A DNA stretch of 64,000 nt from Microbacterium hominis NBRC 15708. Its GTDB lineage: Bacteria > Actinomycetota > Actinomycetes > Actinomycetales > Microbacteriaceae. The stretch covers positions 62,001 through 126,000 of the forward strand of contig NZ_BCWI01000006.1 in NCBI RefSeq assembly GCF_001592125.1, written 5' to 3'. Below, piece by piece: positions 37,594 through 62,362 of this stretch. The translations under genes were made by a program, and so were the position numbers. Every line of letters begins with the position of its first letter. Positions within the stretch are counted from its first letter, which is position 1. Under the pieces are notes generated by a model. It searched no databases, was not told the origin of the DNA, and saw nothing but the letters and a program-made list of their open reading frames with translations.

Positions 37594-38109
37594 GTGACAA
37601 GACCCCTGCATTCCTCGGCATCCCCTCTCGTCGGCGTGGTCATGGGGTCGGACTCCGACTGGCGGGTCATGAGCGACGCCTCGCAGGTGCTCAGCGAGTT
37701 CACGATCCCGCACGAGGTCGAGGTGGTCTCGGCCCACCGCACGCCCGACAAGCTCCTGCGGTACGGCCGTGAGGCGCGCGGCCGCGGCCTCCGCGCGATC
37801 ATCGCCGGAGCCGGCGGCGCGGCGCACCTGCCCGGCATGCTGGCGTCGGTCACCTCCCTCCCCGTCATCGGTGTGCCGGTGCAGCTCGCGACGCTCGACG
37901 GGCTGGACTCCCTGCTCAGCATCGTGCAGATGCCCGCGGGCATCCCGGTGGCGACCGTGTCCATCAACGGCGCCAAGAACGCCGGACTGCTCGCGGCCCG
38001 CATCCTCGGCTCGTCCGACCCGCGACTGGCCGACCGTGTCGAGCAGTACGCGCAGACCCTCGAGGAGCAGGTCGAGGAGAAGAACCTGCGTCTGAAGGAA
38101 TCGCTGTGA
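37594..38109 (+). CDS. purE: N5-carboxyaminoimidazole ribonucleotide mutase
   Basis: 171 residues from GTG 37594. Class I Pur[13 protein letters not shown] phosphate-binding loop, SAHRTPDKL with the catalytic His, and [14 protein letters not shown]. Converts N5-CAIR to CAIR. A 15-residue N-terminal extension precedes the core. The stop overlaps the GTG of the LCP gene by 4 bases, linking purine synthesis to the envelope locus in one transcript. Confidence 0.96.
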
Positions 38110-39581
38110 GCATCGCCGCCCCGCCGCGTCCGCCCCGTGGCGCGGGAGGCGGTGCCGGGGGAGGCGTGATCGTCGGCGAGCAGCCGATGCGTCGTCCCGA
38201 CACCCGCTCGCCGCAGGTCATGACGCGGCGCGCCTGGTGGCTCCTGGCCCTCAACTTCCTCCTGCCCGGCTCGGCTCAGGCCCTCGCCGGCAGCCGTCGC
38301 CTCGGGCGGGTGGGCCTGACGGCGACCCTGCTCATGTGGGTGGTCGTCGTGCTCGCCGGCGTCGCCGCGCTGATCTGGCCGTCGCTGCTCTTCACGATCG
38401 GCACGAACGGGTTCGCGCTGCTCGTCATCCAGCTCGTGCTCCTGGCGTACGCCGTGCTGTGGGTCGTGCTCACGATCGACACGCTCCGGCTGATCCGGCT
38501 GGTGAACGTCCGCCGCGGCTCGCGGCCGATCGTCGCGGCGCTCGCGATCCTCAGCCTCGTCGTCGGCAGCGGCGGCGCCGTGTACGCCGCGCAGCAGCTG
38601 CTGGCTCCGGCTCGCGAGGCGATCGCGGCGATCTTCACGAACAACGCCCCGCCGGTGCCGCCCTCCGACGGGTACTACAACTTCCTGCTCCTCGGCGCCG
38701 ACAGCGGCCTGGGCCGCGATTCGATGCGGTTCGACAGCATCTCGGTGGTCTCGGTCAACGCCGAGACCGGCGCCGTGCACATCACCGGCATCCCGCGCGA
38801 CCTCGCCTACGCGCCGTTCGCCGACGGACCCATGCACGACCGCTATCCCGACGGGTTCGAGGGCCACCCCTCGCAGACGTGCGGCTGGGGCCCGGGCATC
38901 AACCAGCTCATGAACGCCGTCGAGATCTGCCAGCCCGACGGAGGCGCGGAGATCTACCCCGACGCCGCCGCGCAGAGCTCCACCCCTGCCATCGAGGCGA
39001 CGAAGGATGCCGCGGAGGGCATCCTCGGCATCCAGATCCCGTACTACGTGTTCGTCGACATGAAGGGGTTCGCCGACATCGTCGACGCACTCGGCGGCGT
39101 GGACATCACCGTCCAGGAGCGGCTGCCCAAGGGCGGCGGTCCCACCTACGAGGGGGAGCCGGCGGAGGACTGGGCGATCGGCTGGATCGAGGCCGGAGCG
39201 CAGCACATGGACGGCGACACGGCGCAGTGGTACGCGCGGTCGCGGTACACCACGAGCGACTGGGACCGCATGCGCCGTCAGCGGGAGCTGCAGCAGGCGA
39301 TCCTGGCGCAGGCGAACCCCGCGAACGTCCTCAGCCGCTTCCAGGCGGTCGCCGCGGCGGGCGAGGACCTCGTGAAGACCGACATCCCCGATTCGATGCT
39401 GGGGTATCTGGTGCAGCTCGGCGTCAAGGCGAAGGAGCAGCCCGTGCAGACGCTCGAGCTGACGCCCGAGGGCGCCGGCATCGACACGGACGAGCCGACG
39501 GCCGACGAGTACGCGCACGTGCGCGACCTCATCCAGCAGGCGCTCTACCCGCCCTCGCCCACGCCGACCCCGGAGGGCTGA
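38106..39581 (+). CDS. LytR-CpsA-Psr (LCP) family glycopolymer ligase
   Basis: 491 residues from GTG 38106. Proline/glycine-rich cytoplasmic start (1-45), four membrane helices between about 45 and 170, then an extracellular LCP domain (about 190-400) with [14 protein letters not shown], the phosphate-binding arginine in TGIPRDLAY, and [20 protein letters not shown] enzymes transfer polyprenyl-linked glycopolymers to peptidoglycan. As the first gene of the envelope cluster it likely attaches the polymer assembled by the genes downstream. Confidence 0.93.
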
Positions 39582-39585
39582 GGTC

Positions 39586-40707
39586 ATGACCGCCACCCTC
39601 CGCCTGGTGCTGGATCAGATCGTCGCCGCGACCGACGCCGATCTCGCGATCGCCACCCGCGAGATCGCCCGCGCCCTCGTGACGACCGCGCCGTCGGGGT
39701 GCGACGTCGCCGCGATCGTGCCGTCGGTGCCCGACGCGGCCGCCGCGCTGGAGGCCGCCGTTCCCGGCCTCGTCGATGTCACTCGCGCCTCGCTGCCGCG
39801 CCGTGAGCTCGCCGCCTCGTGGCAGCTCGGGATCGCACCGGGCATCGGGGGAGGGATGATCCACTCGCCCACCTCCCTCGCGCCCCTGGTGAAGCACGAT
39901 CGGGTGCACGAGAACGATCAGACGGTCGTCACGATGTGGGATCTCGCCGCGTGGGAGCGCGCCGCGGAGATGTCGCGTCCCGCCGTCGCGTGGCATCGGG
40001 CGATGCTCAAGCGCGCCGTCAAGCATGCCGACGCCGTCGTGGTGCCCACCCATGCGATGGCGGAGAGGCTCGCGGAGATCGCCCCCCTGGGCGACCGCCT
40101 CCGCGTCATCGCCGGCGCCGCACCCGCACGCTTCGCCGTCCCCACCGACGAGGTGGGTCGACGCCGCGCGCTCGACATCCCGGACGGGTGCCTCGTCATG
40201 TCCGGTTCCGCGGCGGCATCCGCGGGTCTCTCCGACGCCTTCACGGCGATCGCGGCCTCGGGAGCCGACCTGCCCGTCGTCGTCCTCGACGCCCCCGAGG
40301 GGGAGGAGCCCGCGCTCGCCGAGCAGGCCGCGGCATCCGGTCTGGCGGAGGGCCGCGTGCACGTGCGGGGGACGCTCGAGGATGCCGATCGTGCGGCCGT
40401 CCTCGGGGGCGCCGTCGCGCTGCTGGCGCCGAGCCGGCTCGCGGGCTTCCCGTGGCGGGTCGTCGAGGCGCTCGCCGTCGGCGTGCCCGTCATCGCCGCG
40501 GACTCGCCGACGCACCGCGAGATCGTGTGGGACGGCGGCGTGCTGGTGCCGGCGGACGAGGAGGGCGCCTTCGCGGACGCGCTCGCGGGCCTGCTGTCGT
40601 CGACGGCCGTCGTCGAGCGGCAGGCCGTGCTCGCCGCCGACCGCGGACGCGCCTTCTCCTGGCTCAGCGCGGCCGAGCGGGTCTGGCAGCTGCACGCCGA
40701 CCTGTGA
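39586..40707 (+). CDS. GT4-type glycosyltransferase
   Basis: 373 residues, 4 bases after the LCP stop. GT-B fold; the C-terminal donor half contains GTLEDADRAAVLGGAVALLAPS and FPWRVVEALAVGVPVIAADSPTH, the GT4 family pattern with the catalytic-glutamate region partly altered. Donor and acceptor sugars unknown; likely acts on the cytosolic, lipid-linked polymer. Confidence 0.85.
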   Translation: MTATLRLVLDQIVAATDADLAIATREIARALVTTAPSGCDVAAIVPSVPDAAAALEAAVPGLVDVTRASLPRRELAASWQLGIAPGIGGGMIHSPTSLAPLVKHDRVHENDQTVVTMWDLAAWERAAEMSRPAVAWHRAMLKRAVKHADAVVVPTHAMAERLAEIAPLGDRLRVIAGAAPARFAVPTDEVGRRRALDIPDGCLVMSGSAAASAGLSDAFTAIAASGADLPVVVLDAPEGEEPALAEQAAASGLAEGRVHVRGTLEDADRAAVLGGAVALLAPSRLAGFPWRVVEALAVGVPVIAADSPTHREIVWDGGVLVPADEEGAFADALAGLLSSTAVVERQAVLAADRGRAFSWLSAAERVWQLHADL

Positions 40708-40745: not shown

Positions 40746-41666
40746 ATGCCTCCTCGTGTCACCGTGATCGTGCGGACGAAGAACCGACCGGAGTTCTTGA
40801 CGAGGTCTCTCGCTGACATCTCGGCACAGACCTTCCGTGACGTCGGCATCGTCGTCGTCAATGACGGCGGCGACCGCGCCGTGGCCGCGCAGATCGTGTC
40901 CTCCGCCGGCGTCGATTCCCGACTGATCGACACCGCCGCACCGGGCGGGCGGTGCGTCGCCGCGAACACCGGAGTCGCGGCGGCCGACGGGAGCGAGTTC
41001 GTCGTCCTCCACGACGACGACGACCTGTGGGACCCGCGCTTCCTGGAGCGCACGGTCGCCTGGCTCGACGCGCACCCGGAGGACGTGGGCGTCGCCGTCG
41101 CCACCGCGATCGCCTACGAGCAGAACGTCGGCGGCGTATGGGTCGAGGCCTCACGGGTGCCGTTCTGGGAAGGGATGACCCGCGTCTCCTTGACCGACAT
41201 GCTCGATCGCAATCGCGTCGTCCCGATCTCGTTGCTCTACCGACGTCGGGTCCACGACGAGGTCGGCGGTTACGACGAGCGACTGGGCACCGTCGAGGAC
41301 TGGGAGTTCCTGCTGCGGGTGCTCGCTCGACACTCGGTGGGGTTCATCCCCGGTGCTCCCCTCGCGATATGGACCCAACGCCCTTCCGCCACCGGAGTGG
41401 CGTCCAACAGCATGTTCGCCCTCGAGGATCGACACGCCGAAGACGACGCCCTCGTGCGCGATCGCGAGCTCGCCGCCTGGACGTCCGCCAACGGAATGGG
41501 CCTTCCGCTGTACCTGGCGGGGATGGAGAGGCGGCTGGCGGACCACGTCGATGCGTCGGCCGACCGCCTCCGGGAGCAGATCCGTGCTGACATCGATTCT
41601 CATCAGCCCATCGCTTCGCGTCTGCGGCGTCTGCGACGACGTCTGGGCGGCCGAGGCGACTCGTGA
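40746..41666 (+). CDS. GT2 family glycosyltransferase
   Basis: 306 residues. GT-A fold: VTVIVRTKNRPEFLTRSL at the N-terminus, nucleotide site VVVNDGGD, metal-binding LHDDDDLWD, and an EDWEFLLR catalytic-base region at about 185. The C-terminal 60 residues are helical and basic. Specificity unknown. The next gene's ATG overlaps its stop by 4 bases. Confidence 0.88.
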   Translation: MPPRVTVIVRTKNRPEFLTRSLADISAQTFRDVGIVVVNDGGDRAVAAQIVSSAGVDSRLIDTAAPGGRCVAANTGVAAADGSEFVVLHDDDDLWDPRFLERTVAWLDAHPEDVGVAVATAIAYEQNVGGVWVEASRVPFWEGMTRVSLTDMLDRNRVVPISLLYRRRVHDEVGGYDERLGTVEDWEFLLRVLARHSVGFIPGAPLAIWTQRPSATGVASNSMFALEDRHAEDDALVRDRELAAWTSANGMGLPLYLAGMERRLADHVDASADRLREQIRADIDSHQPIASRLRRLRRRLGGRGDS

Positions 41667-43960
41667 TGACCGCTTCCCGATCGCGTCTGCGCGCCGCCTG
41701 GCGTCGCGTCAGGGGCGCTCCGGTGGCCGGCGCGCTCGTCAGGGCCGCGGACCGTCTGCTGTGGTGGCGGGTCATCCGCCGCTCCGGCCTGGTGGACGCG
41801 CAGTATTACGCCGCACAGCGCGGATGGCGCCGTGCCGGTGACGCGCGGGCGATCGTGGACTACGTCACGCGCGGATTCAGATCCGGCCTCAGCCTGAATC
41901 CGCTGTTCGACGAGCTCGTCGCCGGGCGGGCGCTGCCCGAGCCCGATCGGGTCCCCGCGCTCTACGCCTACCTCGTGAGCGATCGACGCACGGTGTCCGT
42001 CCATCCCTGGTGGGACGCGCCGGCCGACGCCCACCGGGCCGAGGGCGTTGCGCCACTGGACGACGTCTGGGCGCGCCGGGAGAGCGCGATCGTCGAGGTT
42101 CGGATCGGCGAACGGTCGCGGTCCGTGCCGGTGATGCAGCTGCGCGCCTGGGCGATGGAGGCCGCGCAAGAGTGGCGACGGGGGACGCGCGCACCCGCCG
42201 GGGACGCAGATCGAGCCGACCTGGTCGTTCGGATCCTCCAGCGGCGGGATCGCGATTACCCCCGTCGCGTCCTCGAGGTCACCCCCCTGGCCCACACGGA
42301 TGACGTGGTCGTCGTCGCGGTCGGATGCGAAGCCGGTCAGTGGATCGGGCTCGACGTCGCCGCACGGCTGTTCCCGTCGTTGCGGCGAGTGATCGTTCCG
42401 CGCGCCGCGTCCTATCGGGATGCCGTCCGCAGCGCCGACGCCGCGCCCCGACGCGGATCGGGCACGATCACGATCGTCGGCCCGCGATCGGACCTCACCA
42501 CGGCCGAGATCCGCGCACTGCGGGAAGGCGTCGTGCCGGGCCGGGCGGTCGCACCCGTGGAGATCGCGCCCGACGGAACCGTCGCGGCCTTCGGCGCGGC
42601 CGGCACCGGCGGGACCGTGCCCTACGCGATTCTCAGCGGCCATCCCCGCGAAGACCTCGATCTCCTCGGGACGTCGCGCATCGAAGTGCCCCTTCTGGCC
42701 GGTCCCACGTTCGCGATGGCTCGTGAGGATTGGTCCGCGATCGGCGGGTTCGACGGTGTCTCGGCGGGAGCGGCCGTGCCTGCCCTCAGCGCCGCCCTGC
42801 GTGCTCGAGTTCCCGGCTTCGTCTGCCAGATCGACGCGGGCATCCGGAGCACGTCGTACGCGCGCCACACCGCGTTCCGGACGGAGGAACCCGCCGCGGC
42901 GCCCTTCTCCGACGAGCGCCGTCGCGCCGAAGAGATCCTCCGTGCAGCGGGCTTCCGGGTGACGGCCTGGCGCCCTGCGCTCACGCCGTCCGCCGCACCG
43001 CTGCCCGAGCTCGAGTGGCGACGCCCGGAGCCGGCGGCCTTGCGGTGGGCCATCAAGATCTGCGCACCGCCCGGTCCCCTCGGCGCCGTCTGGGGCGACA
43101 CGCACTTCGCCGACGGACTCGCCAAGGCCCTCAGACGACGCGGACACTTCGTGGCCGTGGACAGCTTCGATGCCCGGGACCGGTGGACGTCTGCCCTCGA
43201 CGACGTGACGCTGGTGGTGCGAGGTCCGTACCGCATCTCTCCCCCGACGACGGGTACCCGCGTCGAGTGGATCATCAGCCACCCCGACCAGATCACGCGA
43301 GCCGAGGTGGACGACTTCGACATCGTCTACGCGGCATCCGATCTGTGGAGTGCAGCGGCCTCCGAGCGGTGGAACATCACCGTCTCGCCGCTGCTGGAGT
43401 GCACCGACGCCGATCAGTTCTACCCGCGTGGCCTGGCGCGCACCGACGAGATCGTCTTCGTCGGCACCGCGCGAGGAATCGCTCGGCCCAGCGTCGTCGT
43501 GCCACTGGCGGCGGGCATCCCGGTGCGCGTCTACGGACCGGATTGGCGCACCTACATCCCCGCCTCGGCCATCGCGGCGGAGAACCTTCCGAACGACCGG
43601 CTCAGCGAGCGCTATGAGACGGCCTCCATCGTCCTCAACGACCAATGGCCGGCGATGCGGCAAGAAGGGTTCATCGCCATGCGGCCGTTCGACGTCGTGG
43701 CCGCCGGCGGGCGGGTGATCAGCGAGGACGTCGACGGTATCGACCGCGTGTTCGGTGACGCCGTGCCCGTGTTCCGAACGGACGAGGAACTGCTCGAGCT
43801 GCTGGCACGCGACCCCGCCGATCTGTTCCCGGATGCGGAGGGGCTCGCGGCCGCGTCCGAGCGCATCCGACGGGATCATTCCTTCGACGCGCGGGCCGGA
43901 CGTATCGTCGACGACGTCCTCCGCCACCGCGCCGCGGGGGCGGCGCCGCGTGAGCAGTAG
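41663..43960 (+). CDS. Large two-part glycosyltransferase
   Basis: 765 residues. Residues 1-200 contain a basic start and a helical region (DAQYYAAQRGWRRAGDARAIVDYVTRG). Residues 205-400 resemble a divergent GT2 domain (VVVAVGCEAGQWIGLD..., AMAREDWSAIGGFDGVS) without a clear DXD. Residues 440-765 resemble a GT-B, CgeB-like glycosyltransferase (FADGLAKALRRRGHFVAV, FVGTARGIARPSVV, RPFDVVAAGGRVISED). Probably one active and one degenerate or structural domain. It sits within the glycosyltransferase run before the heptose genes. Confidence 0.75.
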   Translation: MMTASRSRLRAAWRRVRGAPVAGALVRAADRLLWWRVIRRSGLVDAQYYAAQRGWRRAGDARAIVDYVTRGFRSGLSLNPLFDELVAGRALPEPDRVPALYAYLVSDRRTVSVHPWWDAPADAHRAEGVAPLDDVWARRESAIVEVRIGERSRSVPVMQLRAWAMEAAQEWRRGTRAPAGDADRADLVVRILQRRDRDYPRRVLEVTPLAHTDDVVVVAVGCEAGQWIGLDVAARLFPSLRRVIVPRAASYRDAVRSADAAPRRGSGTITIVGPRSDLTTAEIRALREGVVPGRAVAPVEIAPDGTVAAFGAAGTGGTVPYAILSGHPREDLDLLGTSRIEVPLLAGPTFAMAREDWSAIGGFDGVSAGAAVPALSAALRARVPGFVCQIDAGIRSTSYARHTAFRTEEPAAAPFSDERRRAEEILRAAGFRVTAWRPALTPSAAPLPELEWRRPEPAALRWAIKICAPPGPLGAVWGDTHFADGLAKALRRRGHFVAVDSFDARDRWTSALDDVTLVVRGPYRISPPTTGTRVEWIISHPDQITRAEVDDFDIVYAASDLWSAAASERWNITVSPLLECTDADQFYPRGLARTDEIVFVGTARGIARPSVVVPLAAGIPVRVYGPDWRTYIPASAIAAENLPNDRLSERYETASIVLNDQWPAMRQEGFIAMRPFDVVAAGGRVISEDVDGIDRVFGDAVPVFRTDEELLELLARDPADLFPDAEGLAAASERIRRDHSFDARAGRIVDDVLRHRAAGAAPREQ

Positions 43961-43970: not shown

Positions 43971-45242
43971 ATGAACGCGCGTTCCTTGCTTCACCGCGTC
44001 CAGTGGGAGATCAATGCCATCCGGCATCGCGATCCTCTGTCGCCACGGCGGTTTGTCCGGTTGTTCGGTTCGCGCCGGCGGCGCTCCTGGGACCCGACGC
44101 AGGAGCCGCGCCGGGTCGTCATCCTCCGCAGCGACGAGATCGGCGACACCGTCAGCACGTTGACGCTGCTGGACGCCATGCGTCGCCAGTGGCCCTCCGC
44201 GAAACTGCACCTCGTGGTCAAGCCGGGCCCGGGGTCCGCTTTCCATGCCGCCCCCAGCGTCGACCGTCTGATCTTCTGGTCGCCGATCACGGAGGGCTCG
44301 GCGTTGAAGCGGCAGATCCTCACGGTTCGGCAGGCTCTGCGCCGGTTCGGGCTCCGCGGCTACGATCTGGCGGTCCTGCCGCGCTGGGACTTCGACGACA
44401 CCCCGATCCGGTACCTCGCGGTCGCCGCCCGTGCGCGCTCGGTCGTCGGCTTCACCCCCGTCCCCCAGCGCGAGCCCGACTGGCTCGGCGACCAGAGCGC
44501 GCTCTTCACCGATGAGCTCCCGCGCGGAAACGACCCCCTGCTGACCGTCGCTCAGCTGCGCCGCCTGGCGGACTGGCTCGGGCTGGCATGGACCCATCCG
44601 GGCGCCCGGCCGGTGGGACGAGCCCTGTTCGACGCCGCCGACGCGGCGCGCGCAGAAGCCCGCGCCTCCTTGCCCGGTGAGAGCGGACGGGTCATCGGCC
44701 TCGGCATCGGCGCACGGGACGCGAAGCGTCAGTGGCCCGTCGAACGTCTGACCGAGGCCGTCGTCGAGATCGCGAAGAGCGGGCCGGTCCGCGTCCGCAT
44801 CCTCGGAGGCCCGACCGACCGCGAGCGTGCGGCCGAACTCGTGGGGCTTCTCCGCGACCGCGGGATCGCGGCCGTGGATCTCGCGGGCGAACTCTCCTTG
44901 AGCGAGAGCGCCGCGGCGATCTCGCAGTGCGACCTCTTCATCGGCAACGACTCCGGTCTGCAGCACATCTCGAGCTCTCTCGACGTTCCCACCGTCGTCG
45001 TCACCTGCCATCCCGCGACGGGCTCGCCCTGGAGCGACAATGCGCCGGAGCGATTCGGCCCGTGGTCGCGTCAGCGAGCGGTTCTCCAGCCGGAACGGCC
45101 CGCACCCGGATGCGGCGAGGAGTGCTCGTCCCGCGAGCCGCACTGCATCCTCGCCGTCGACTCCGCCGATGTCGCCGGCGCCGCCCTCGCGCTCATCGGT
45201 GAGTCCTCTCGTCCTTCCGAGACACCGGCGTCCGCGGGCTGA
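43971..45242 (+). CDS. GT9 family heptosyltransferase-like glycosyltransferase
   Basis: 423 residues from ATG 43971, chosen from the TAGAAT box 7 bases upstream (an ATG 9 bases earlier overlaps that box). ADP-heptose:LPS heptosyltransferase fold: VVILRSDEIGDTVSTL near residue 45, LGIGARDAKRQWPVERLTE, and the conserved FIGNDSGLQHISSSL. A C-terminal cysteine cluster (CGEECSSREPHC) resembles that of heptosyltransferases. With HldE and GmhA directly downstream it most likely transfers a heptose, in an organism without LPS; the acceptor is presumably a wall polymer. Confidence 0.88.
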   Translation: MNARSLLHRVQWEINAIRHRDPLSPRRFVRLFGSRRRRSWDPTQEPRRVVILRSDEIGDTVSTLTLLDAMRRQWPSAKLHLVVKPGPGSAFHAAPSVDRLIFWSPITEGSALKRQILTVRQALRRFGLRGYDLAVLPRWDFDDTPIRYLAVAARARSVVGFTPVPQREPDWLGDQSALFTDELPRGNDPLLTVAQLRRLADWLGLAWTHPGARPVGRALFDAADAARAEARASLPGESGRVIGLGIGARDAKRQWPVERLTEAVVEIAKSGPVRVRILGGPTDRERAAELVGLLRDRGIAAVDLAGELSLSESAAAISQCDLFIGNDSGLQHISSSLDVPTVVVTCHPATGSPWSDNAPERFGPWSRQRAVLQPERPAPGCGEECSSREPHCILAVDSADVAGAALALIGESSRPSETPASAG

Positions 45243-45279
45243 ACCGCGTCCTGTCTCCGTCACTGATCTGGAACCCGCC

Positions 45280-46764
45280 ATGACTTCTCTTCCCCTCATC
45301 ACTCCTCACGACGTCCTCGGGTTCCAGGCGGTGCATGTGGTCGTCGTCGGCGACGCGATGCTCGATCGGTACGTCGAGGGCGCGGTGCACCGCATCTCTC
45401 CGGAAGCGCCGATCCCCGTGCTCCGCGTCGCCCAGGACCGCTCGGTGGCCGGAGGCGCCGCGAACGCGGCAATGAACATCGCGGGGCTCGGCGCCGCGGC
45501 GACTCTCATCGCGGCGTGGGCCGAGGACGAGGCGGGCCGGGAGCTCGAGAGACTGCTCGCGGCCGCCGGCGTCCAGGCGCGCCGCGTCGCCCGAGGCGAT
45601 GCCCCCACGATCGAGAAGCTGCGGGTCGTGGCCGGGCAGCAGCAGATCGTGCGCATCGATCGCGAGGACACGTCGTCGCTGGATGCGGCCGGTGCGGATG
45701 CCGTGCTCAGCGCTGTGCGCGATGCCGTCGAGGGGCACGACCATCGGTGCGTCATCGTCCTCTCCGACTACGCGAAGGGCATGCTCGACGAGGCGGTCGT
45801 GCAGCGCGTGATCGCCTTCGCCCGAGAGCGCTCCCTGCCCGTCGTCGTCGACCCGAAGTCGGCGGACATCCGCAAGTACAGCGGCGCGACGGTCGTGAAG
45901 CCCAACTTCGCCGAGGCGGCCCTCATGGCGGGGGTGTCGGCGACCGCGCCGACCGAGGAGGTGCTCGCGCAGATCGCCGAGGCGATGGCCGTCCCGGATG
46001 TGTCGGCCGTCGCGATCTCCCTGTCCGCGCTGGGCGTCGAGGTCGTCGAGGGCGGCGCGCGCACGCGGCTTCCCACGCGCGCCCGTCTCGTCGCCGACGT
46101 CTCCGGTGCCGGTGACTCCATGATCGCGGGTCTCGCAGTGGGCCTCGGCAGCGGCCTGTCCACCCTGAAGGCCGTGCAGGTCGGAAACCTGGCCGCCGGC
46201 ATCGCCTGCGCCCGTCCGGGCACCGCGGTGGTGACCTCGGCCGACCTCCTCAACGAACTGCTGATCGATTCCTCTCCCGCCCACCGGCCGGGCACGATCG
46301 AGGACTGGGATGAGCTGGCGCGACTGGTGCGGGTGGAGAAGGACGCGGGCCGGACGGTGGTCTTCGCGAACGGAGTCTTCGACCTCCTGCACGCCGGCCA
46401 TGTCGCTCTCCTCAAGGAGGCCCGTTCGCTCGGCGACGTGCTCGTCGTGGGAGTGAACTCGGATGCCTCGACGGCGCGACTCAAAGGACCGTCGCGACCG
46501 CTGCAACCGCAGGCGGACCGCATGGCGGTGCTGGACGCCGTACGCTACGTGGATTTCGTCACCGTGTTCGAGCAGGACACTCCCCGCGAGCTGATCCGGG
46601 CCATCCAGCCGGACGTCATCGTGAAAGGATCGGACTACCGACCCGATCAGGTCGTCGGGGGAGACGATGCCAAGGCCTGGGGCGGCAGAGTCCATATCGT
46701 GACCCTCCTCGACGGTGTCTCGACGACGAAGCTGTCGCAGGGCGAACAGGTGCGTCGCGGCTGA
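45280..46764 (+). CDS. hldE: Bifunctional heptose-7-phosphate kinase / heptose-1-phosphate adenylyltransferase
   Basis: 494 residues. N-terminal PfkB-type kinase (1-325) with VVGDAMLDRYVEG, GGAANAAMNIAGLGA and the catalytic DVSGAGDSMIAG. C-terminal nucleotidyltransferase (345-494) with FANGVFDLLHAGHVALL (HxGH motif), VGVNSD and VKGSDY. Both activities are needed to make ADP-D-glycero-beta-D-manno-heptose, with GmhB acting between them. The full fused length matches Gram-negative HldE. Weak ribosome site; 37-bp gap from the GT9 gene. Confidence 0.94.
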   Translation: MTSLPLITPHDVLGFQAVHVVVVGDAMLDRYVEGAVHRISPEAPIPVLRVAQDRSVAGGAANAAMNIAGLGAAATLIAAWAEDEAGRELERLLAAAGVQARRVARGDAPTIEKLRVVAGQQQIVRIDREDTSSLDAAGADAVLSAVRDAVEGHDHRCVIVLSDYAKGMLDEAVVQRVIAFARERSLPVVVDPKSADIRKYSGATVVKPNFAEAALMAGVSATAPTEEVLAQIAEAMAVPDVSAVAISLSALGVEVVEGGARTRLPTRARLVADVSGAGDSMIAGLAVGLGSGLSTLKAVQVGNLAAGIACARPGTAVVTSADLLNELLIDSSPAHRPGTIEDWDELARLVRVEKDAGRTVVFANGVFDLLHAGHVALLKEARSLGDVLVVGVNSDASTARLKGPSRPLQPQADRMAVLDAVRYVDFVTVFEQDTPRELIRAIQPDVIVKGSDYRPDQVVGGDDAKAWGGRVHIVTLLDGVSTTKLSQGEQVRRG

Positions 46765-46788
46765 GCCGCGCGGGAGAGGAATCACAAG

Positions 46789-47370
46789 ATGAACATCGTT
46801 CAGGAGAACCTGCTCGAGAACGCACGCCGGATGTCGGCCCTCGCGGAGGACGAGCGCTTCGGAGCGTCGTTCGCGGCCGCGGCGGAGACCATGGTGACCT
46901 CACTGCGCGGGGGAGGGACGCTGTTCGCCTGCGGCAACGGCGGTTCGATGACCAACGCTCAGCACTTCGCCGAGGAACTCACCGGCAGGTTCCGTGGGAA
47001 TCGGCCGCCGCTGCGCGCGATGGCGATCTCCGACCCGTCCCACCTCACCTGCGTCGCCAACGACTACGGCTACGAGTTCGTGTTCTCCAAGTTCGTCGAG
47101 GCGTTCGCTCGCCCCGGCGACGTCCTGCTCGCGCTCAGCACGAGCGGCAAGTCACCGAACGTGCTCCGCGCGGCGGAGGCGATGAAGGCGGCGGGAGGCA
47201 AGGTCGTGGCCTCGTCGGGCACGGCCGAGAGCCCGATCGGGGCGTTGGCCGATGTGACGATCGCCCTCGGCGCCAGTCGCTGGGCCGACCGCATCCAGGA
47301 GTCGGAGCTCGTCGTCATCCACTCGCTGATGCAGGCCATCGAGGACGGGTTCGGCTACTCCGCGGAGTGA
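46789..47370 (+). CDS. gmhA: Phosphoheptose isomerase
   Basis: 193 residues, the family's usual length. SIS-domain enzyme converting sedoheptulose-7-phosphate to D-glycero-D-manno-heptose-7-phosphate. Active-site features are intact: ACGNGGSMTNAQHFAEELTG, STSGKSPNV phosphate loop and the C-terminal HSLMQAIE histidine. RBS GAGAGGAA 8 bases before ATG. Its 3' end overlaps that of the convergent gmhB by 16 bp. Confidence 0.95.
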   Translation: MNIVQENLLENARRMSALAEDERFGASFAAAAETMVTSLRGGGTLFACGNGGSMTNAQHFAEELTGRFRGNRPPLRAMAISDPSHLTCVANDYGYEFVFSKFVEAFARPGDVLLALSTSGKSPNVLRAAEAMKAAGGKVVASSGTAESPIGALADVTIALGASRWADRIQESELVVIHSLMQAIEDGFGYSAE

Positions 47371-47948
47371 TCCGGCCCCGCGGCGGCGGCGGCGAATGCC
47401 GCCAACGTCGGGAACGTGACGTCGGCGTGCGGATCGTCCACGGCATCGATGCGCACGGTCATCGTGCCGCCGGTGCGCGCTCCCAGTCGCCGTCCCATCT
47501 CGATGTCCGACTCCGTGTCGCCCACCATGACCGACAGTGCCGCATCGACCTCCGGATGCTGGGCGAGGTAGCTCAGCGCCATCCCGGGAGCAGGCTTGCG
47601 GCAGTCGCAGTCCGCGCCGACGAGGTGGGGGCACACGCGGATGTCGTCGATCCGCCCTCCCGCCCCTTCGATCTCGAGGCGCATCCGCCGATGGATGTCG
47701 TCGAGGTCGGCAGCCGTCATGAGCCCCTTGCCCACGCCCTGCTGGTTCGTCACGACCACGATGCGCGGTGCCCACTGCGCGAGGACTGCCAGGGCCTCGA
47801 GTGCCCCGGGTTCGAACGCGAACTGCTCCCACGTGCGCACATAGCCGTCGATGATGCGGGTGTTGATCACGCCGTCGCGGTCGAGGAAGAGACACCACTG
47901 CCGACCCGAGGTGTTTCGGCGTCGTGTCTCCTGCGTGAGCGTGTCCAC
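47355..47948 (-). CDS. gmhB: D-glycero-D-manno-heptose 1,7-bisphosphate phosphatase
   Basis: 197 residues from GTG 47948. HAD-family phosphatase: nucleophile loop FLDRDGVINT, VVTNQQGVGKG, the zinc-binding CPHLVGADCDCRKPAPGM insert typical of GmhB, and MVGDTESDIEMG. Removes the C7 phosphate between the two HldE reactions. Anomer preference cannot be read. Encoded opposite to gmhA, overlapping tail to tail. Confidence 0.94.
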   Translation of the reverse strand: MDTLTQETRRRNTSGRQWCLFLDRDGVINTRIIDGYVRTWEQFAFEPGALEALAVLAQWAPRIVVVTNQQGVGKGLMTAADLDDIHRRMRLEIEGAGGRIDDIRVCPHLVGADCDCRKPAPGMALSYLAQHPEVDAALSVMVGDTESDIEMGRRLGARTGGTMTVRIDAVDDPHADVTFPTLAAFAAAAAGPDHSAE

Positions 47949-48089: not shown

Positions 48090-49490
48090 ATGACTGTGCA
48101 GTCGAATCCATTGGTGTCCATGGTCGGGGCGCGAAGGCGGCGGGGGCGCCTTTCTCTGTTCAGCGCGGTCTGCGCAGCCCTGGTCGTGGTGATCGTCGCC
48201 GCAGGAGCGGGCACCGGTGCGTACGCCGCGCCCGTGGACGCCGCGCCCGCACGTATCGCCGGCTCGACGGCGTCGAGCGCACCGGCTGCCTCGACCGACA
48301 TCCCGGTGCACCCGTGGTTCGAACCGACGTACACCGAATTGGGCGGAACCGGCGGCGTCCTCGGCGCACCCCTGCACCCGATGCAGTGTCAGTCGAGCTC
48401 GTGCTGGCAGGAGTTCGCCGGCGGAGTGCTCACGTCCGATGGGACCCGGATCGTCAAGCTCTCCACCGAGTACGTCTCGACATGGCTCGCGGCCGGAGGC
48501 CCGGACGGCGGGCTCGGGCTGGTCGCGGGCCCGGAATCCTGCTTCGGTACGTACTGCGCCACTCCGTTCACCCACGGTGTCGCACGGTGGACGCCCGGCG
48601 TCGGGGTTCAGGTGATCCTCGTGCACCCGTGGTTCGAAGAGGCGTGGAAGCGGCTCGGTGCGGTCACCGGAGAGATCGGCATCCCGCTCAACGGCCTCAC
48701 GTGCCAGTCGTCCTCGTGCTGGCAGGAGTTCGTGGGTGGCGTGCTCACCTCGGACGGCACCCAGATCGTGAAACTCTCCAGCTCCTATGTGCGCACGTGG
48801 CTTGCGTGGGGCGGACCGGACGGCGACATCGGTCTGGTCTCGGGGCCCGAGAAGTGCTACGGGTGGTACTGCGAGGCTTCGTTCACGGGTGGTGTCATCG
48901 TCTGGAATCCGGGCGGCTACGGCGTGACGTTCCCCGTCACGAAGCGCTGGTTCTACGGCGACTGGATCGCCCGAGGAGGGGGCGGTGGCTCTCTCGGTGT
49001 TCCGCTCGGTGCGATGGAGTGTCAACGAGCGGCGTGTTATCAGCAGTTCAGTAGAGGCACGCTGACGTCGTCGTCCACGGGGATCGTGTCGCTCTCCACG
49101 GCGTACGTCGACCATTGGCTCTATCGCGAAGGTGGGCCCGACGGTCACCTCGGTCTCGTCGAGGGGCCCGAGTCGTGCTTCAGCGGCCAGTGCCAGGTTC
49201 CGTTCCAGCACGGCCTCATGGTGTGGCAGCCCGGTGGAGGCGTACGGGTGCTCACGGGAGCCGAGGCCGATGCGTGGCGGGCCAGCTATCCCCTGCCGGG
49301 CTCCGCGCCGTCGACGGGCGGCTCGTCCGGCGGCGGGACGCCCGCCAACCCCGGCGATACGGTCAACTGCGACGATTTTGACACGCAGGCGCAAGCGCAG
49401 GCATGGTTCGACAAGTACAAGCCGTACTACGGCGATGTCGCCAGGCTTGACCGCGACAACAACGGGATCGCTTGCGAGTCGCGTCCGTGA
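48090..49490 (+). CDS. Secreted LGFP-module protein with C-terminal excalibur calcium-binding domain
   Basis: 466 residues from ATG 48090; AAAGGAC abuts it, so the GTG at 48096 is an alternative. Signal peptide in the first 48 residues ending ...AYAAPV. Six LGFP-type modules of about 50 residues follow as three pairs of alternating types, each with a CX4C pair (CQSSSC, CFGTYC, CQSSSC, CYGWYC, CQRAAC, CFSGQC) that could form a disulphide. A Ser/Gly linker leads to an excalibur domain (NCDDF..., LDRDNNGIACE). LGFP repeats are thought to bind wall polysaccharide, so this is probably a wall-associated structural or adhesive protein. Confidence 0.88.
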   Translation: MTVQSNPLVSMVGARRRRGRLSLFSAVCAALVVVIVAAGAGTGAYAAPVDAAPARIAGSTASSAPAASTDIPVHPWFEPTYTELGGTGGVLGAPLHPMQCQSSSCWQEFAGGVLTSDGTRIVKLSTEYVSTWLAAGGPDGGLGLVAGPESCFGTYCATPFTHGVARWTPGVGVQVILVHPWFEEAWKRLGAVTGEIGIPLNGLTCQSSSCWQEFVGGVLTSDGTQIVKLSSSYVRTWLAWGGPDGDIGLVSGPEKCYGWYCEASFTGGVIVWNPGGYGVTFPVTKRWFYGDWIARGGGGGSLGVPLGAMECQRAACYQQFSRGTLTSSSTGIVSLSTAYVDHWLYREGGPDGHLGLVEGPESCFSGQCQVPFQHGLMVWQPGGGVRVLTGAEADAWRASYPLPGSAPSTGGSSGGGTPANPGDTVNCDDFDTQAQAQAWFDKYKPYYGDVARLDRDNNGIACESRP

Positions 49491-49545: not shown

Positions 49546-50085
49546 GTGAACTACGGTCAACGAGTGCAGCCTGGTCTCGGCGAGCGGCGCGACGCGATGA
49601 GGCGCGTCGGTTTCGGCGCGCTGGTGTCGGTCGGCGCGATGATGTCCCTCGTCGCATGCGCGACCGGCTCCGCAGGCTCGCCGGGCTCGACGACGACCGC
49701 TCCGGTTCCTCCCACTAGCGCGACCGTTGCCGTGCCGACGCCGACGTCCTCTGCGACCCCGGCGACGCCCTCTCCGATCGCGTCGCCGACGCCCGGCGCC
49801 ACGGCGACGGTCACGATCGTCAGCTCGGGAGCGGACGGGGAGGACGTCTTCGCATCGGGCCTCGTCACGGGAGACGCCGACGAGGAGGGGACGTGCTCGC
49901 TGACCGCCACATCGGCGACGGGTCGCGTCCTCACCGCCCAGACAGAGGCCCACGCCACGCCCGCAGCCGTGAACTGCGGGCTGATCAAGATCGCGGCCGA
50001 GCCCGGCGACTGGACGCTCGTTCTGAGCTTCACCTCGCCGACCTCGGCCGGCTCGTCCGCATCGGTGCTGGTCCATCAGCCGTGA
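49546..50085 (+). CDS. Secreted lipoprotein with Ser/Thr/Pro-rich stalk
   Basis: 179 residues from GTG 49546 (an inner ATG at 49597 is an alternative). Signal and lipobox SLVAC put the lipidated cysteine at about residue 38. A flexible low-complexity stretch of T, P, S and A covers about 45-90, followed by a small beta-type domain with two cysteines (GTCSLTA, VNCGL). No family recognised. The stop overlaps the GTG of the large LGFP gene by 4 bases, so the two are coexpressed. Confidence 0.78.
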   Translation: MNYGQRVQPGLGERRDAMRRVGFGALVSVGAMMSLVACATGSAGSPGSTTTAPVPPTSATVAVPTPTSSATPATPSPIASPTPGATATVTIVSSGADGEDVFASGLVTGDADEEGTCSLTATSATGRVLTAQTEAHATPAAVNCGLIKIAAEPGDWTLVLSFTSPTSAGSSASVLVHQP

Positions 50086-52454
50086 GTGAAGCCCCGCGGA
50101 CCCTCCGCCGTCGTCTCCTCTCGATGCTGGTCGTCGTTGCGGCGGTGTTCTCGGGACTCGTCGGAGTCGTCGCACCGCTGCAACCGCCGGCCGCGGACGC
50201 CGCGACCGCGAGCAGCTTCCAGGCCGGCTATCTGATCTCCGACAGCAACTTCTTCGATTCGGGGTCGCTCTCGGCATCCGACATCCAGAGCTTCCTGAAC
50301 TCGAAGGTGTCGAACTGTCGGCCGTTGTACGGCATGCCGTGCATGCGCGACTATGTCGCGCAGTCGACGCCGGCGCTCGCGGCGAACGCCTACTGCAGTG
50401 CGTTCCCGGGCGGCTCGATGACCGCCGCCCAGTTGATCTCGGCCGTCGCCCAGTCGTGCGGAATCAACCCCAAGGTGATTCTCGTGATGCTGCAGAAGGA
50501 GCAGAGCCTCGTCACGGACCCGTCGCCGTACGAGGTGCAGTACAGTGCGGCGCTCGGGCAGGGATGCCCCGACGGGGCCGCCTGCGACCCCGACTATGCG
50601 GGCTTCTTCTACCAGCTGTACGGCGCGGCTCGGCAGATGCAGATCTACATCAAGAACCCGAGTTGGTTCGGCTACCAGCTGGGGTGGAACAACATCCTGT
50701 ATCAGGCCAACCCTCCGGACACGAAGGGCATCTGCGGAACCAAGCGCGTCTACATCCAGAACGATGCCACGCGCGCGCTGTACGTCTACACGCCGTACAC
50801 ACCCAATCAGGCCGCGCTCGACAACCTCTACAGCACCGGTGACTTCTGCTCGTCCTACGGCAACCGCAACTTCTGGCGTCTGTACACCGACTGGTTCGGC
50901 GACCCGACCGCAGAGCAGGTCACGGGGGAGTACGCCGCGGTGTGGAAGTCCCTCGGCGGAGCTTCCGGAATCCTCGGCGCGCCGAGGAGCGTCGTCGTCT
51001 GCATTGACAACCGCTACTGCCAGCAGTCGTTCGCCGGCGGGACGATCTTCTGGTTCCCCTCGCGGGGCGTGTTCGGTGTCCCGTCGGTCGTCGAGTCGAT
51101 GTGGCGGAACCTCGGGTTCATCGATGGCAAGCCGGGATTGCCGACGGGCGTGCCGGTCTGTGCCGCTGACTCGACCTGCGCGCAGTCGTTCGACGGCGGG
51201 GTGATCGCGGCGGACTCGGTCGGCGGGTCGCTGGTGGGACAGCACATCCAGTACACCTGGCTGGCGGCGGGCGGTGTCGCCCTCGGCGGCGCGCGCGGCC
51301 CGGAGGTCTGCTCGGCCGGTGACAAGTGCGCCCAGACCTTCGCCCGGGCGGCGTTCTTCTCCGGCGGGGGTGCGACTGCGGTCGTGGGCGGGATCTTCCA
51401 GGCGTGGAGCGCGAACGGCATGTCGGCGGGCGCGATGGGGTATCCCCAGAGCGATGCGGTGTGCGCCGGCGGCGGGTGCACGCAGCGGTTCGACGGCGGC
51501 CTCATCGTGGCGGCCGGTTCGAACGCCCAGGCGATTCCGACCGCGATCGCGACACCGTACCTCGCGGCGGGGGGATATGCCGCCCTGGGCGCACCGGTCG
51601 CTCCCGCAACGTGCGGCGCAGGCACCTCCTGCTCGCAGCTGTTCGAGCGGGCGCGCATCGACGTCTCCACGGCGCGGGGCACGATCATCACCACCGGGCT
51701 GTTCCTCTCCGCCTGGGCGGCCCGCGGCTATGACCAGGGTGTTCTGGGTGCGCCGACGGCGGCGGCGGTGTGCACGGCGGTGACGTGTTCGCAGTCGTTC
51801 CAGGGCGGTCTGCTGGTCGGTTCGCCGTCGAACGGCGTCGTCGCCGTGACGGGACAGTACCGTGACGTGTGGCTCGCGACGGGCGGCGTCACGGGCTCGC
51901 TGGGTCTGCCGCTGGGCAACGACTCGTGTGACGGCAAGAGCTGTTCGCAGGCTTTCCAGCGCGGTGTCCTGGCGTGGACGCCGACGTACGGGATGGTGAC
52001 GGTGTCGGGCTGGTTCCTGCAGCCGTGGCAGGCGCAGGGTGCGGGCGGCGGGGCGTTGGGTGCGCCGACGGCGGCGGCGGTGTGCACGGCGGTGACGTGT
52101 TCGCAGTCGTTCCAGGGCGGTGTGCTCTCGGGGTCTCCCTCCAACGGCGTGATCGCCGTCCTCGGCGAATACCGTGATCTCTGGATGGCGGCGGGTGGTC
52201 CCACCGGCACGCTCGGGCGCGTGCTCGCCGCCGCCACCTGCAACGGGAAATGGTGCGGGGTCGACTTCGACAACGGATCCATCGTCTGGTCGCCGGCAAC
52301 GGGTGCCAACGTCGTGTCGGCGCCGATCTACAGCCGGTGGATCGCCGCCGGGGGAGCGAACGGGCGTTACGGACTTCCGTTGCGCGCGGCCAAGAACGTT
52401 TCGGGGGGCACGGCTCAGGACTTCCAGTTCGGCACGATCTCGGTGGGGCCGTGA
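50082..52454 (+). CDS. Large secreted protein: lysozyme-like N-terminal region plus about ten LGFP modules
   Basis: 790 residues from GTG 50082. Signal peptide to about residue 40 (VVAPLQPPAADAAT). Residues 45-290 form a distinct domain; the stretch GINPKVILVMLQKEQSL recalls the helix bearing the catalytic glutamate of lytic transglycosylases, but this is tentative. From about 295 to the end come ten LGFP-like modules of about 50 residues, nine with a CX4C or CX5C pair. Two modules share an identical 65-bp DNA segment. Likely binds, and possibly remodels, the cell wall. Confidence 0.82.
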   Translation: MSEAPRTLRRRLLSMLVVVAAVFSGLVGVVAPLQPPAADAATASSFQAGYLISDSNFFDSGSLSASDIQSFLNSKVSNCRPLYGMPCMRDYVAQSTPALAANAYCSAFPGGSMTAAQLISAVAQSCGINPKVILVMLQKEQSLVTDPSPYEVQYSAALGQGCPDGAACDPDYAGFFYQLYGAARQMQIYIKNPSWFGYQLGWNNILYQANPPDTKGICGTKRVYIQNDATRALYVYTPYTPNQAALDNLYSTGDFCSSYGNRNFWRLYTDWFGDPTAEQVTGEYAAVWKSLGGASGILGAPRSVVVCIDNRYCQQSFAGGTIFWFPSRGVFGVPSVVESMWRNLGFIDGKPGLPTGVPVCAADSTCAQSFDGGVIAADSVGGSLVGQHIQYTWLAAGGVALGGARGPEVCSAGDKCAQTFARAAFFSGGGATAVVGGIFQAWSANGMSAGAMGYPQSDAVCAGGGCTQRFDGGLIVAAGSNAQAIPTAIATPYLAAGGYAALGAPVAPATCGAGTSCSQLFERARIDVSTARGTIITTGLFLSAWAARGYDQGVLGAPTAAAVCTAVTCSQSFQGGLLVGSPSNGVVAVTGQYRDVWLATGGVTGSLGLPLGNDSCDGKSCSQAFQRGVLAWTPTYGMVTVSGWFLQPWQAQGAGGGALGAPTAAAVCTAVTCSQSFQGGVLSGSPSNGVIAVLGEYRDLWMAAGGPTGTLGRVLAAATCNGKWCGVDFDNGSIVWSPATGANVVSAPIYSRWIAAGGANGRYGLPLRAAKNVSGGTAQDFQFGTISVGP
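51745..52121 (+). repeat. Perfect 65-bp direct repeat inside the large LGFP gene
   Basis: 51745-51809 and 52057-52121 are identical. The 312-bp offset equals 104 codons (two LGFP modules), so recombination between copies would remove or add exactly two modules in frame. Confidence 0.85.
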
Positions 52455-52668: not shown

Positions 52669-52935
52669 ATGACCGATGACCGTGTGCTGTCCGCGGATGC
52701 CGTCGATTCCGTCTCGCTCGAGCGTGCGCTCAAGGACGTCGAGGTCGCGAACGCACGGGTCATCGAGCTGACTCGCGGCATGCTGGAGCGCGAGAAGCGG
52801 ATCACCGAGCTCGAGGCCGAAGTCGTCCAGCTCAAGCTCATGCTGGATCCGCGGCGCAAGATCGAGCACGTGTTCCGCAAGAACCACACCCTGTACGTCA
52901 TCGGTCGTCGCGCCAAGCGGATGATGGGCCGGTGA
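52669..52935 (+). CDS. Small coiled-coil protein
   Basis: 88 residues from ATG 52669, with GAGAGGA 7 bases upstream. Residues 20-60 are a heptad-patterned coiled coil (LERALKDVEVANARVIELT, REKRITELEAEVVQLKLML), followed by a basic tail (RRKIEHVFRKN, GRRAKRMMGR). No known family. Overlaps the GT2 gene by 4 bases, so it may scaffold or anchor that enzyme at the membrane. Confidence 0.78.
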   Translation: MTDDRVLSADAVDSVSLERALKDVEVANARVIELTRGMLEREKRITELEAEVVQLKLMLDPRRKIEHVFRKNHTLYVIGRRAKRMMGR

Positions 52936-54059
52936 GCGCGCCCACGAGGCCGCGCGTCCTCCTGGCGGTCACCTTCTACAACGGCCGCGATTTCGCCGAG
53001 CGGACGATGGACTCGATCGCGGCCATAGAGCACGATGGCTTCGATCTCGATGTGCTCGTGCTCGACGACGCGAGCCCGGAGCCGGGCTTCAGCGACCATC
53101 TGGCGGAGATCTCGGATCGCAAGGGCGCGACGTACTACCGCGCCACGCGCAACCTCGGCATCCCGCGGAACGTGAACCTGGGCCTCGCGACGGCGCAGAA
53201 GCTGCAGTACGACTACGTCGTGATCTCCAACTCCGACGTCATCTACTCCAAGAACTCGGTGAGCGTGCTGCTGGAGGCGCTGCGCGGGCACGACGACGTC
53301 GCATCGGCGACGGCATGGTCGACCAACGTCGAGCCGTACTCGTTGCCCTGCGGTGTGGAGCTGTATCCGGAGGAGCAGGACGTCGCCGATCTCATCGGAA
53401 CCGCCCTCCACAACCGTTTCGGGACGGAGGCGATCGACATCCCCGCGGGCATCTCGTTCGCCATGATGGTGCCCGTGCCGCGACTGGAGGTCGTCGGACT
53501 CATGGATCCCGTCTTCGGGCGGGGCTACGGCGAGGAGTCGGACTGGTCCGCACGGGCGACGAGCGCCGGGTATCGGCACCTTCTCGTCCAGGGGGCGTAC
53601 GTCTACCACGCCGGACGTGGCTCGACTCTCGCGGCCGGGGTGGTGTCGCAGTCCGATATCGCCGACTGGACGAATCAAGCGATCGTCGAGCACCGCTCAC
53701 CGATGTTCCGCTGGAGCGTCGATGCCTTCATGCGCTCCGGGGTCATGGACGACGCGCGCCCGGAGGCGGTGGCGGCGATCATCGCGCACGCTGCCGCTGT
53801 CAACGGCTATGCGCTCGTCAACGCGGCATCCGACTGGGACGATGTCGACCCGCGGGTGGTGACCGTGACCCTGCGGTCCGAGGCCGATGAGATGTGCATG
53901 GCTCAGTGGTGCGGCTTCACGACGGAGATCGACACCGATCAGATCGACGTCGTCGACGCGGTGGTCGCCTACTTCGGCGGGCAGCGCCCTGTTGCGACCA
54001 ACCTCCGCCCGGCGATCTGGGAGGGCGCCGACACGTTCGGCTATCCCGTCGGATTGTGA
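52932..54059 (+). CDS. GT2 family glycosyltransferase
   Basis: 375 residues from GTG 52932. GT-A domain: VLLAVTFYNGRDFAERTM, VLVLDDASPE nucleotide site, VISNSDVIY metal site, and a FGRGYGEESDWSARA catalytic region near residue 195. A C-terminal helical region of about 120 residues has no clear relative. Donor unknown; dTDP-rhamnose is possible given the rml genes nearby. Confidence 0.87.
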   Translation: MSAPTRPRVLLAVTFYNGRDFAERTMDSIAAIEHDGFDLDVLVLDDASPEPGFSDHLAEISDRKGATYYRATRNLGIPRNVNLGLATAQKLQYDYVVISNSDVIYSKNSVSVLLEALRGHDDVASATAWSTNVEPYSLPCGVELYPEEQDVADLIGTALHNRFGTEAIDIPAGISFAMMVPVPRLEVVGLMDPVFGRGYGEESDWSARATSAGYRHLLVQGAYVYHAGRGSTLAAGVVSQSDIADWTNQAIVEHRSPMFRWSVDAFMRSGVMDDARPEAVAAIIAHAAAVNGYALVNAASDWDDVDPRVVTVTLRSEADEMCMAQWCGFTTEIDTDQIDVVDAVVAYFGGQRPVATNLRPAIWEGADTFGYPVGL

Positions 54060-54066
54060 GCGCGGA

Positions 54067-55303: not shown

Positions 55304-56173
55304 ATGGCGGGATCATCGGTCATCATCACCGGAGCGGCTGGATACGTCGGAAGGCATGTCGTCACGGCGGTCGCCGACCTCGGCTTCGAGCCGATCGCCG
55401 TCGTGCGACCCGGCTCCGACGCGGCCATCGACCCCCGGGCACGTGTCTTCGAGGCAGACATCCTCACAGAGGGTGCGGATGTGCTCCGGGCCGTCGGGGT
55501 CGGCGACGTCGCGGCGGTCATCCACCTCGCGTGGCAGGACGGTTTCGTGCACAACGCGCCGTCCCACATGGCGCAACTGTCACGTCACTACGCGTTTCTG
55601 ACGGGCCTCGCCGATGCCGGTGTTCCGCGCATCGCCGCGCTCGGGACCATGCACGAGATCGGCTACTGGGAGGGGCCGGTGACCGCCGACACCCCCACCA
55701 ATCCGCTCACGCTGTACGGCGTCGCGAAGGATGCCCTGCGACGCTCGACGACCATCGCCATCGGTGAGCGTTCCGAGTACGTCTGGCTGCGGGCCTATTA
55801 CATCCTGGGTGATGATCGACGAAACCGTTCGATCTTCGCCAAACTGCTCGAGGCGGCAGATCGAGGGGAGACGGTCTTCCCGTTCACGACCGGAAAGACC
55901 CTGTACGACTTCATCGATGTGGTGGAGCTCGGCCGGCAGATCGCCGTCGCCGCCGTCTCTCCCGGTGTCACCGGGGTTCTCAACGTCGCGAGCGGCGCCC
56001 CGGAGTCGCTGGCGAGCCGAGTGGAGAGGTTCATCGCCGACAACGGTCTGGGGCTCACGCTCGAGTACGGAGCCTTTCCCGACCGCCCCTATGATTCCCC
56101 CGGAACGTGGGCCGATGCAGAAGCCATATCTGCGCTCATGTCCGCCTCCCCCTTCGCCAAGGAGAATTCGTGA
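55304..56173 (+). CDS. NAD-dependent sugar epimerase/dehydratase family protein
   Basis: 289 residues. Extended SDR: ITGAAGYVGRHVV cofactor motif at the N-terminus and catalytic YGVAK near residue 142. GAGAGGAGC lies upstream of the ATG. It precedes an rmlC-type gene with a 4-base overlap, so it probably reduces or epimerises a nucleotide-activated sugar in the same pathway; the role of RmlD (4-keto reductase) is a possibility, since no separate rmlD is seen in the window. Specificity unproven. Confidence 0.82.
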   Translation: MAGSSVIITGAAGYVGRHVVTAVADLGFEPIAVVRPGSDAAIDPRARVFEADILTEGADVLRAVGVGDVAAVIHLAWQDGFVHNAPSHMAQLSRHYAFLTGLADAGVPRIAALGTMHEIGYWEGPVTADTPTNPLTLYGVAKDALRRSTTIAIGERSEYVWLRAYYILGDDRRNRSIFAKLLEAADRGETVFPFTTGKTLYDFIDVVELGRQIAVAAVSPGVTGVLNVASGAPESLASRVERFIADNGLGLTLEYGAFPDRPYDSPGTWADAEAISALMSASPFAKENS

Positions 56174-59513: not shown

Positions 59514-59520
59514 GGCCGGC

Positions 59521-60432: not shown

Positions 60433-60439
60433 CCTTGCG

Positions 60440-60445
60440 AGTCTA
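60440..60445 (-). promoter_or_regulatory. -10 box of the ABC exporter operon
   Basis: TAGACT on the minus strand, 7 bases before ATG 60432; an AAGG also precedes the ATG. Confidence 0.55.
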
Positions 60446-60491
60446 CCTGGTGGGGCCTGTGCGCCAGCCTGAGAACGAGGCCGTCCGCGGG

Positions 60492-62362
<1,871 letters not shown>

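Follow-up and report, generated by a model that had tools for sequence, protein, structure and literature searches.

A predicted ADP-heptose gene block in a cell wall polymer locus of Microbacterium hominis

Introduction

The ADP-heptose pathway and heptosyltransferases of Gram-negative lipopolysaccharide (LPS) synthesis, represented by GmhA, HldE, GmhB, WaaC, and WaaF of Escherichia coli, are among the closest described counterparts of a four-gene block that we analyzed in the Gram-positive actinobacterium Microbacterium hominis NBRC 15708. The block encodes a GT9 glycosyltransferase, HldE, GmhA, and GmhB, and lies in a stretch of 64,000 nucleotides (contig NZ_BCWI01000006.1, positions 62,001 to 126,000; hereafter the window). 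It resembles the LPS system in its three biosynthetic proteins, its fused HldE, its GT9 fold, and most of its motifs, and its HldE falls on the E. coli HldE side of the tree, apart from the commoner actinobacterial types. Unlike the LPS system, however, the genome contains no HldD above the family cut-off and no LpxC, and the genes are located in a wall locus with a LytR-CpsA-Psr (LCP) glycopolymer transferase and a Wzm/Wzt exporter. We propose that the block probably makes ADP-heptose and that the GT9 protein attaches the heptose to a cell wall polymer.

Heptose enzymes are also found in other Gram-positive bacteria. Tang and co-workers reportedly described nucleoside diphosphate (NDP)-heptose synthetases of actinobacteria, tridomain according to the title, and the biosynthesis of septacidin. 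Like the block, these are heptose-nucleotide enzymes of Gram-positive actinobacteria; however, they are described as tridomain or feed antibiotic pathways, whereas the window encodes a two-domain HldE that lacks the STTR5 arginine, a separate GmhA, and a GT9 protein in a wall locus. In Bacillus (Aneurinibacillus) thermoaerophilus, manno-heptose likewise occurs on a Gram-positive surface, but it is carried by an S-layer glycoprotein and supplied by a GDP-linked donor pathway, whereas the window is predicted to specify an LCP-ligated wall polymer. Published work lists manno-heptose among the sugars of S-layer glycans (PMC2943079) and states that heptose derivatives for components of the envelope are produced by Gram-positive bacteria too, some of which possess the pathway (PMC10269868). 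Septacidin of Streptomyces and the NDP-heptose enzymes of different kingdoms have also been treated (PMC11461863, PMC11573728, and PMC10948575). Other papers mention a heptosyltransferase annotation in Frankia (PMC5563000) and describe ADP-linked L,D-heptose as reported only in Gammaproteobacteria (PMC7725333). In the literature covered, which excluded most subscription papers, we found no report of an ADP-heptose-fed or heptose-containing wall polymer in Microbacteriaceae.

Results

The first-pass annotation of the window had placed a GT9 transferase, a fused HldE, GmhA, and GmhB within 4 kb. Pfam and NCBIfam searches and alignments with the E. coli proteins bore out all four identities (Table 1), the open reading frames (ORFs) being chosen with a simple codon-position script rather than a gene finder. 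HldE consists of two domains, a kinase and a nucleotidyltransferase, and is 41% identical to HldE of E. coli K-12 over 482 aligned positions; the corresponding values are 44% over 184 positions for GmhA and 36% over 161 positions for GmhB. The gmhA and gmhB genes are arranged tail to tail with an overlap of 16 bp. Sequence comparison aligned the GT9 protein only weakly with E. coli WaaF and WaaC.

When the PDB sequences were searched, the top matches were a heptose 7-phosphate kinase for HldE, a phosphoheptose isomerase for GmhA, and a D,D-heptose 1,7-bisphosphate phosphatase for GmhB (110.6 bits, followed by HisB at 89.4 bits). For the GT9 protein, E. coli heptosyltransferases I and II ranked directly behind an entry named "glycosyl transferase family 9". 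The best fold matches of the predicted GT9 model were solved GT9 proteins and heptosyltransferases, and the protein was about 18% identical to WaaF and WaaC in the structural alignment. Although their Pfam and NCBIfam matches were strong, all four proteins missed the NCBIfam equivalog cut-offs (score/cut-off in bits: HldE, 443/521; GmhA, 185/265; GmhB, 133/178; GT9, 51.6/134.6). The HldE model TIGR02199 scored 181.3 against a cut-off of 181.5, while TIGR02198 and NF008454 were clearly under theirs. Since all four score under the equivalog cut-offs, they are, by this measure, divergent members of their families.

The active-site motifs had been described as intact, and this held for most catalytic and metal-site residues but not for two positions of the GT9 protein. 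GmhA H59, E63, Q170, and H178 aligned with E. coli H61, E65, Q172, and H180, which we take to be the metal site. GmhB D23 and D25, presumably the HAD aspartates, and C106, H108, C114, and C116, presumably the Cys/His zinc site, aligned with the E. coli GmhB residues. HldE contains the motifs SGAGD and NGVFDLLHAGH, of which the SGAGD and HAGH regions align with E. coli HldE. At the positions of WaaC D13, K192, E222, D261, and H266, which we assume to be the catalytic aspartate and donor-site residues, the GT9 protein keeps D59, D327, and H332 but has R253 in place of K192 and D283 in place of E222.

The arginine in place of the donor-site lysine would fit an alternative in which the substrate of the enzymes is a different sugar phosphate of seven or six carbons and the donor of GT9 also differs, the block then making a different sugar of the same polymer. 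The scores under the equivalog cut-offs would also fit, as would the related Streptomyces enzymes, which are reported to feed antibiotic pathways (PMC11461863 and PMC10948575). However, arginine occupies the lysine position in 41 of 44 distant GT9 proteins, and three separate proteins of one pathway stand together with GT9 in one block with their catalytic residues aligned. We consider the other-sugar alternative improbable, and an ADP-heptose pathway is the likely function of the block.

An arginine in the motif (F/L)XXGRSTT (STTR5) has been tied to the use of CTP and UTP besides ATP (PMC11573728), while another paper states that STTR5 is not strictly required for nucleoside triphosphate promiscuity (PMC11461863). 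The window HldE has the motif LLDGVSTT, and valine replaced the STTR5 arginine in all 12 window-type HldE sequences (the window and 11 relatives). The arginine was present in 5 of 5 readable HldE sequences of type C and 2 of 13 of type B (two other types, described below), in 11 of 14 from other Actinomycetia, and in 11 of 25 database sequences. Because the STTR5 arginine is missing, the window HldE would be expected to favor ATP, and a promiscuous HldE is unsupported.

No HldD epimerase had been noticed in the window, and a search with TIGR02197 extended this result to the whole genome, which gave seven weak matches scoring at most 96.6 bits (cut-off, 274.6 bits). None of 16 genomes (M. hominis and 15 relatives; ten of the 16 carry the block) had HldD above the cut-off, at which HldD in the window or genome was rejected. 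Because no HldD-like gene exceeds the cut-off, the heptose would stay in the D,D form. Alternatively, the heptose might be epimerized to the L,D form by a divergent short-chain dehydrogenase/reductase (SDR) such as the one downstream of the block. TIGR02197 is the top, though weak, NCBIfam match of this SDR, and SDR matches lie downstream of the block in five of eight carrier loci, the other three ending earlier. However, its score is under the cut-off (Table 1), it is 21% identical to E. coli HldD, and it adjoins RmlC near RmlA and RmlB, which explain it better; together with the lack of HldD in the 16 genomes, this makes epimerization very unlikely. The SDR is more likely a deoxyhexose 4-ketoreductase than HldD.

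That the organism makes no LPS was supported by a search for LpxC, which gave no match in its genome and was positive in 4 of 14 named genomes, including E. coli. The GC content of 2-kb windows across the block was 0.69 to 0.72, similar to that of adjoining windows, and relatives show synteny of the block. On these three grounds, LPS or contamination was rejected as an explanation.

The block lies between the LCP gene and the Wzm/Wzt genes, as the first-pass annotation had indicated. The connection with a wall glycopolymer drawn there was strengthened by 31 purE-anchored loci that we compared with the window. These came from eight other carriers of the block in the genus, 22 genomes of the same genus, and G132, a genome of another genus. 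The 22 were picked for lacking window-type HldE; their lack of it is a matter of selection, and the informative part is what replaces the block. An LCP match followed purE in all 31 loci, and a GT4 match was found inside the first 7 kb in 29. In all nine carriers of the genus, the block was within this purE-LCP-GT4 wall locus. The eight carrier loci had GT4 and then GT2 (8/8), followed by the large transferase, GT9, HldE, GmhA, and GmhB, except that G660 lacked the large transferase at that place, the large transferase of G589 was in two match pieces, and the G600 locus stopped at a contig end. In G660, the large transferase was seen only as a 39 to 40% match after the LGFP gene.

In the stretch read of the 22 selected non-carrier loci, no match to GT9, HldE, GmhA, or GmhB was found. 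GT4 was within 7 kb of purE in 21 of them; among these 21, an LGFP match began within 470 bp after GT4 in 16 and other genes followed in five, while seven had an LCP-GT4 gap of 1.9 to 2.9 kb. In G132, the block was inverted and about 21 kb from purE. From this comparison we conclude that the heptose genes are, as judged by gene order, a variable block of a conserved wall polymer locus. A PurE tree used to count gains and losses gave four changes with only 1 of 29 inner branches well supported, and nothing is claimed from it.

In the window, the LCP transferase, glycosyltransferases, and Wzm/Wzt are together in one cluster. Another alternative is that heptose is made as proposed but is transferred by GT9 to a surface protein or lipid, such as the LGFP-repeat proteins next to the block, comparable to TibC and Aah acting on E. 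coli autotransporters. We regard such a target as unlikely, and a wall polymer as the probable acceptor.

Of 247 genomes of the genus, nine contained window-type HldE (74 to 100% identity); these nine, and no others, also contained window-type GT9 (66 to 100% identity). The GT9, HldE, GmhA, and GmhB genes were adjacent in the window, in the eight other carriers, and in G132, with GmhB of G600 interrupted by the contig end. The gene order also recurred in all six close loci found among genome contigs, four of which were from genomes already among the genus carriers; the large transferase was absent from this position in L014, one of the six, and in L195. The survey of conservation that had been suggested found the block kept together in carriers, but carriers few in number. 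Since the block is present in few relatives, the wall coat of Microbacterium probably varies in whether it contains heptose. A different HldE-like protein (35 to 43% identity) was present in 11 further genomes of the genus and in two of the nine carriers. At the thresholds used, a GT9-like match unaccompanied by an HldE match occurred in just one of the 247, G623 (C22:53156-53941). A record named Sphingomonas sp. G5 (P0041) contained a 76% identical HldE and is probably a misnamed Microbacterium.

An HldE-like match at E ≤ 1e-40 was found in 63 of 296 Actinomycetia genomes (35 to 42% identity apart from the window). In Microbacteriaceae, 284 of 299 genomes matched HldE at E ≤ 0.001, mostly weakly, and 53 of 299 did so at E ≤ 1e-40, as counted manually from the search listing. 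A score of 443 bits was reached only by the window and G132; the 28 other loci retrieved were 35 to 39% identical to the window. These counts rejected the idea that the block is unique in actinobacteria, and with the published precedents they made the description of heptose genes as "unexpected" in such an organism too strong. The distinctive feature is the wall-locus setting, not the mere presence of heptose genes.

We then compared HldE sequences in a tree of 72 rows, which was built by a quick method and is unrooted, the root being drawn at the midpoint; 25 of 120 listed database hits were used, and L170 was dropped as it had no usable frame. The 12 window-type sequences formed one group (support 100) inside a set (98) that also included database hits and the E. 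coli HldE. Separate sets were formed by type B with other Actinomycetia (99) and by type C, which grouped with three further Actinomycetia sequences (100). Because the long branches of E. coli and L015 join each other in this quick midpoint-rooted tree, no donor lineage is claimed.

Types B and C belong to a second, commoner heptose-like cluster of Microbacteriaceae (L126:10716-17284, L127:3526-14590, L129:8553-19390, and L168 to L177). Like the window block, it combines HldE with GT9; however, its HldE is 33 to 43% identical (tblastn and HMMER) and falls in separate tree groups, and the cluster lies at another place in the genome and is commoner in the family. It often has two HldE-like proteins a few kilobases apart, together with GT9 and a short-chain dehydrogenase, and in L126 additionally an aldehyde dehydrogenase and a GT4. 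At each of the eight loci L170 to L177, GmhA adjoins the type C HldE, and GmhB-like genes are present in L127 and L129. G589, G651, and G132 have second-cluster HldE besides the window-type block.

Table 1. Predicted features of the heptose block and the surrounding wall polymer locus (positions in the window)
Feature	Position	Strand	Evidence and remarks
GT9 glycosyltransferase, predicted heptosyltransferase	43971..45242	+	ATG 43971, stop 45242, 423 aa; PF01075 E 4.6e-18 (longer ORF)
HldE, predicted heptose 7-phosphate kinase/heptose 1-phosphate adenylyltransferase	45280..46764	+	ATG start; 494 aa; NF008454 443 bits, E 9.5e-133
GmhA, predicted sedoheptulose 7-phosphate isomerase	46789..47370	+	193 aa; NF001628 9e-55
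GmhB, predicted heptose 1,7-bisphosphate 7-phosphatase	47355..47948	-	197 aa; NF006506 6.3e-39, TIGR01656 2.4e-42
LCP glycopolymer transferase	38106..39581	+	PF03816 4e-23; after purE, conserved locus anchor
GT4-type glycosyltransferase	39586..40707	+	PF13692 6.7e-16; left edge of variable region
GT2 glycosyltransferase	40746..41666	+	PF13641 3.3e-17; travels with heptose block
Large transferase, predicted GT-A-like part and C-terminal GT-B (GT4-like) part	41663..43960	+	PF13524 at residues 617-749
LGFP-repeat and Excalibur protein	48090..49490	+	PF08310, PF05901; right edge of block
LGFP-repeat protein	49893..52454	+	PF08310 1.4e-60, six stretches
GT2 glycosyltransferase	52932..54059	+	PF00535 3.2e-13
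Acyltransferase 3 family protein	53887..55299	+	PF01757 5e-14; start likely later, about 54019
SDR, weakly HldD-like	55304..56173	+	TIGR02197 29.8 bits vs cut-off 274.6
RmlC-like dTDP-sugar epimerase	56107..56733	+	PF00908 7.2e-36; TIGR01221 77 bits, under cut-off
Protein with polysaccharide pyruvyl transferase match	56740..58251	-	PF04230 2.4e-09, limited to the end of the profile
Wzt, ABC exporter ATPase with Wzt_C domain	58290..59651	-	PF00005, PF14524
Wzm, ABC-2 exporter permease	59521..60549	-	PF01061 5.3e-16
RmlB dTDP-glucose 4,6-dehydratase	60492..61706	-	TIGR01181 458.9 bits, above cut-off
RmlA glucose-1-phosphate thymidylyltransferase	61493..63016	-	TIGR01207 472.7 bits, above cut-off

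Discussion

In the proposed mechanism, GmhA, HldE, and GmhB would convert sedoheptulose 7-phosphate to ADP-heptose, and GT9 would transfer the heptose to the wall polymer as acceptor. The polymer would then be exported by the Wzm/Wzt pair and ligated to peptidoglycan by the LCP protein.

If so, a hallmark sugar of the LPS core would also be a variable wall polymer component of a Gram-positive genus, and this would offer a use for the heptose-nucleotide enzymes known in actinobacteria. Recognition by phages and antibodies would then probably depend in part on heptose. Carriers and non-carriers would provide a comparison ready to hand and a place to seek heptose in Gram-positive walls. As a corollary only, the carriers would be Gram-positive producers of ADP-heptose, the ligand of ALPK1, and could serve as a test of whether Gram-positive bacteria feed ALPK1 immune sensing.

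Two further observations concern the surroundings of the block. The predicted model of the large transferase had a pLDDT of 75 and Foldseek matches to PimA/BshA/SenB and GalNAc-transferases; being moderate, it was used for the broad fold statement in Table 1 only. Past the window on the same contig (L122:8236-13271), a UDP-galactopyranose mutase, a GlfT2-like galactofuranosyltransferase, and another ABC-2 permease are encoded, which suggests that genes for a galactofuran polymer are located near the wall locus.
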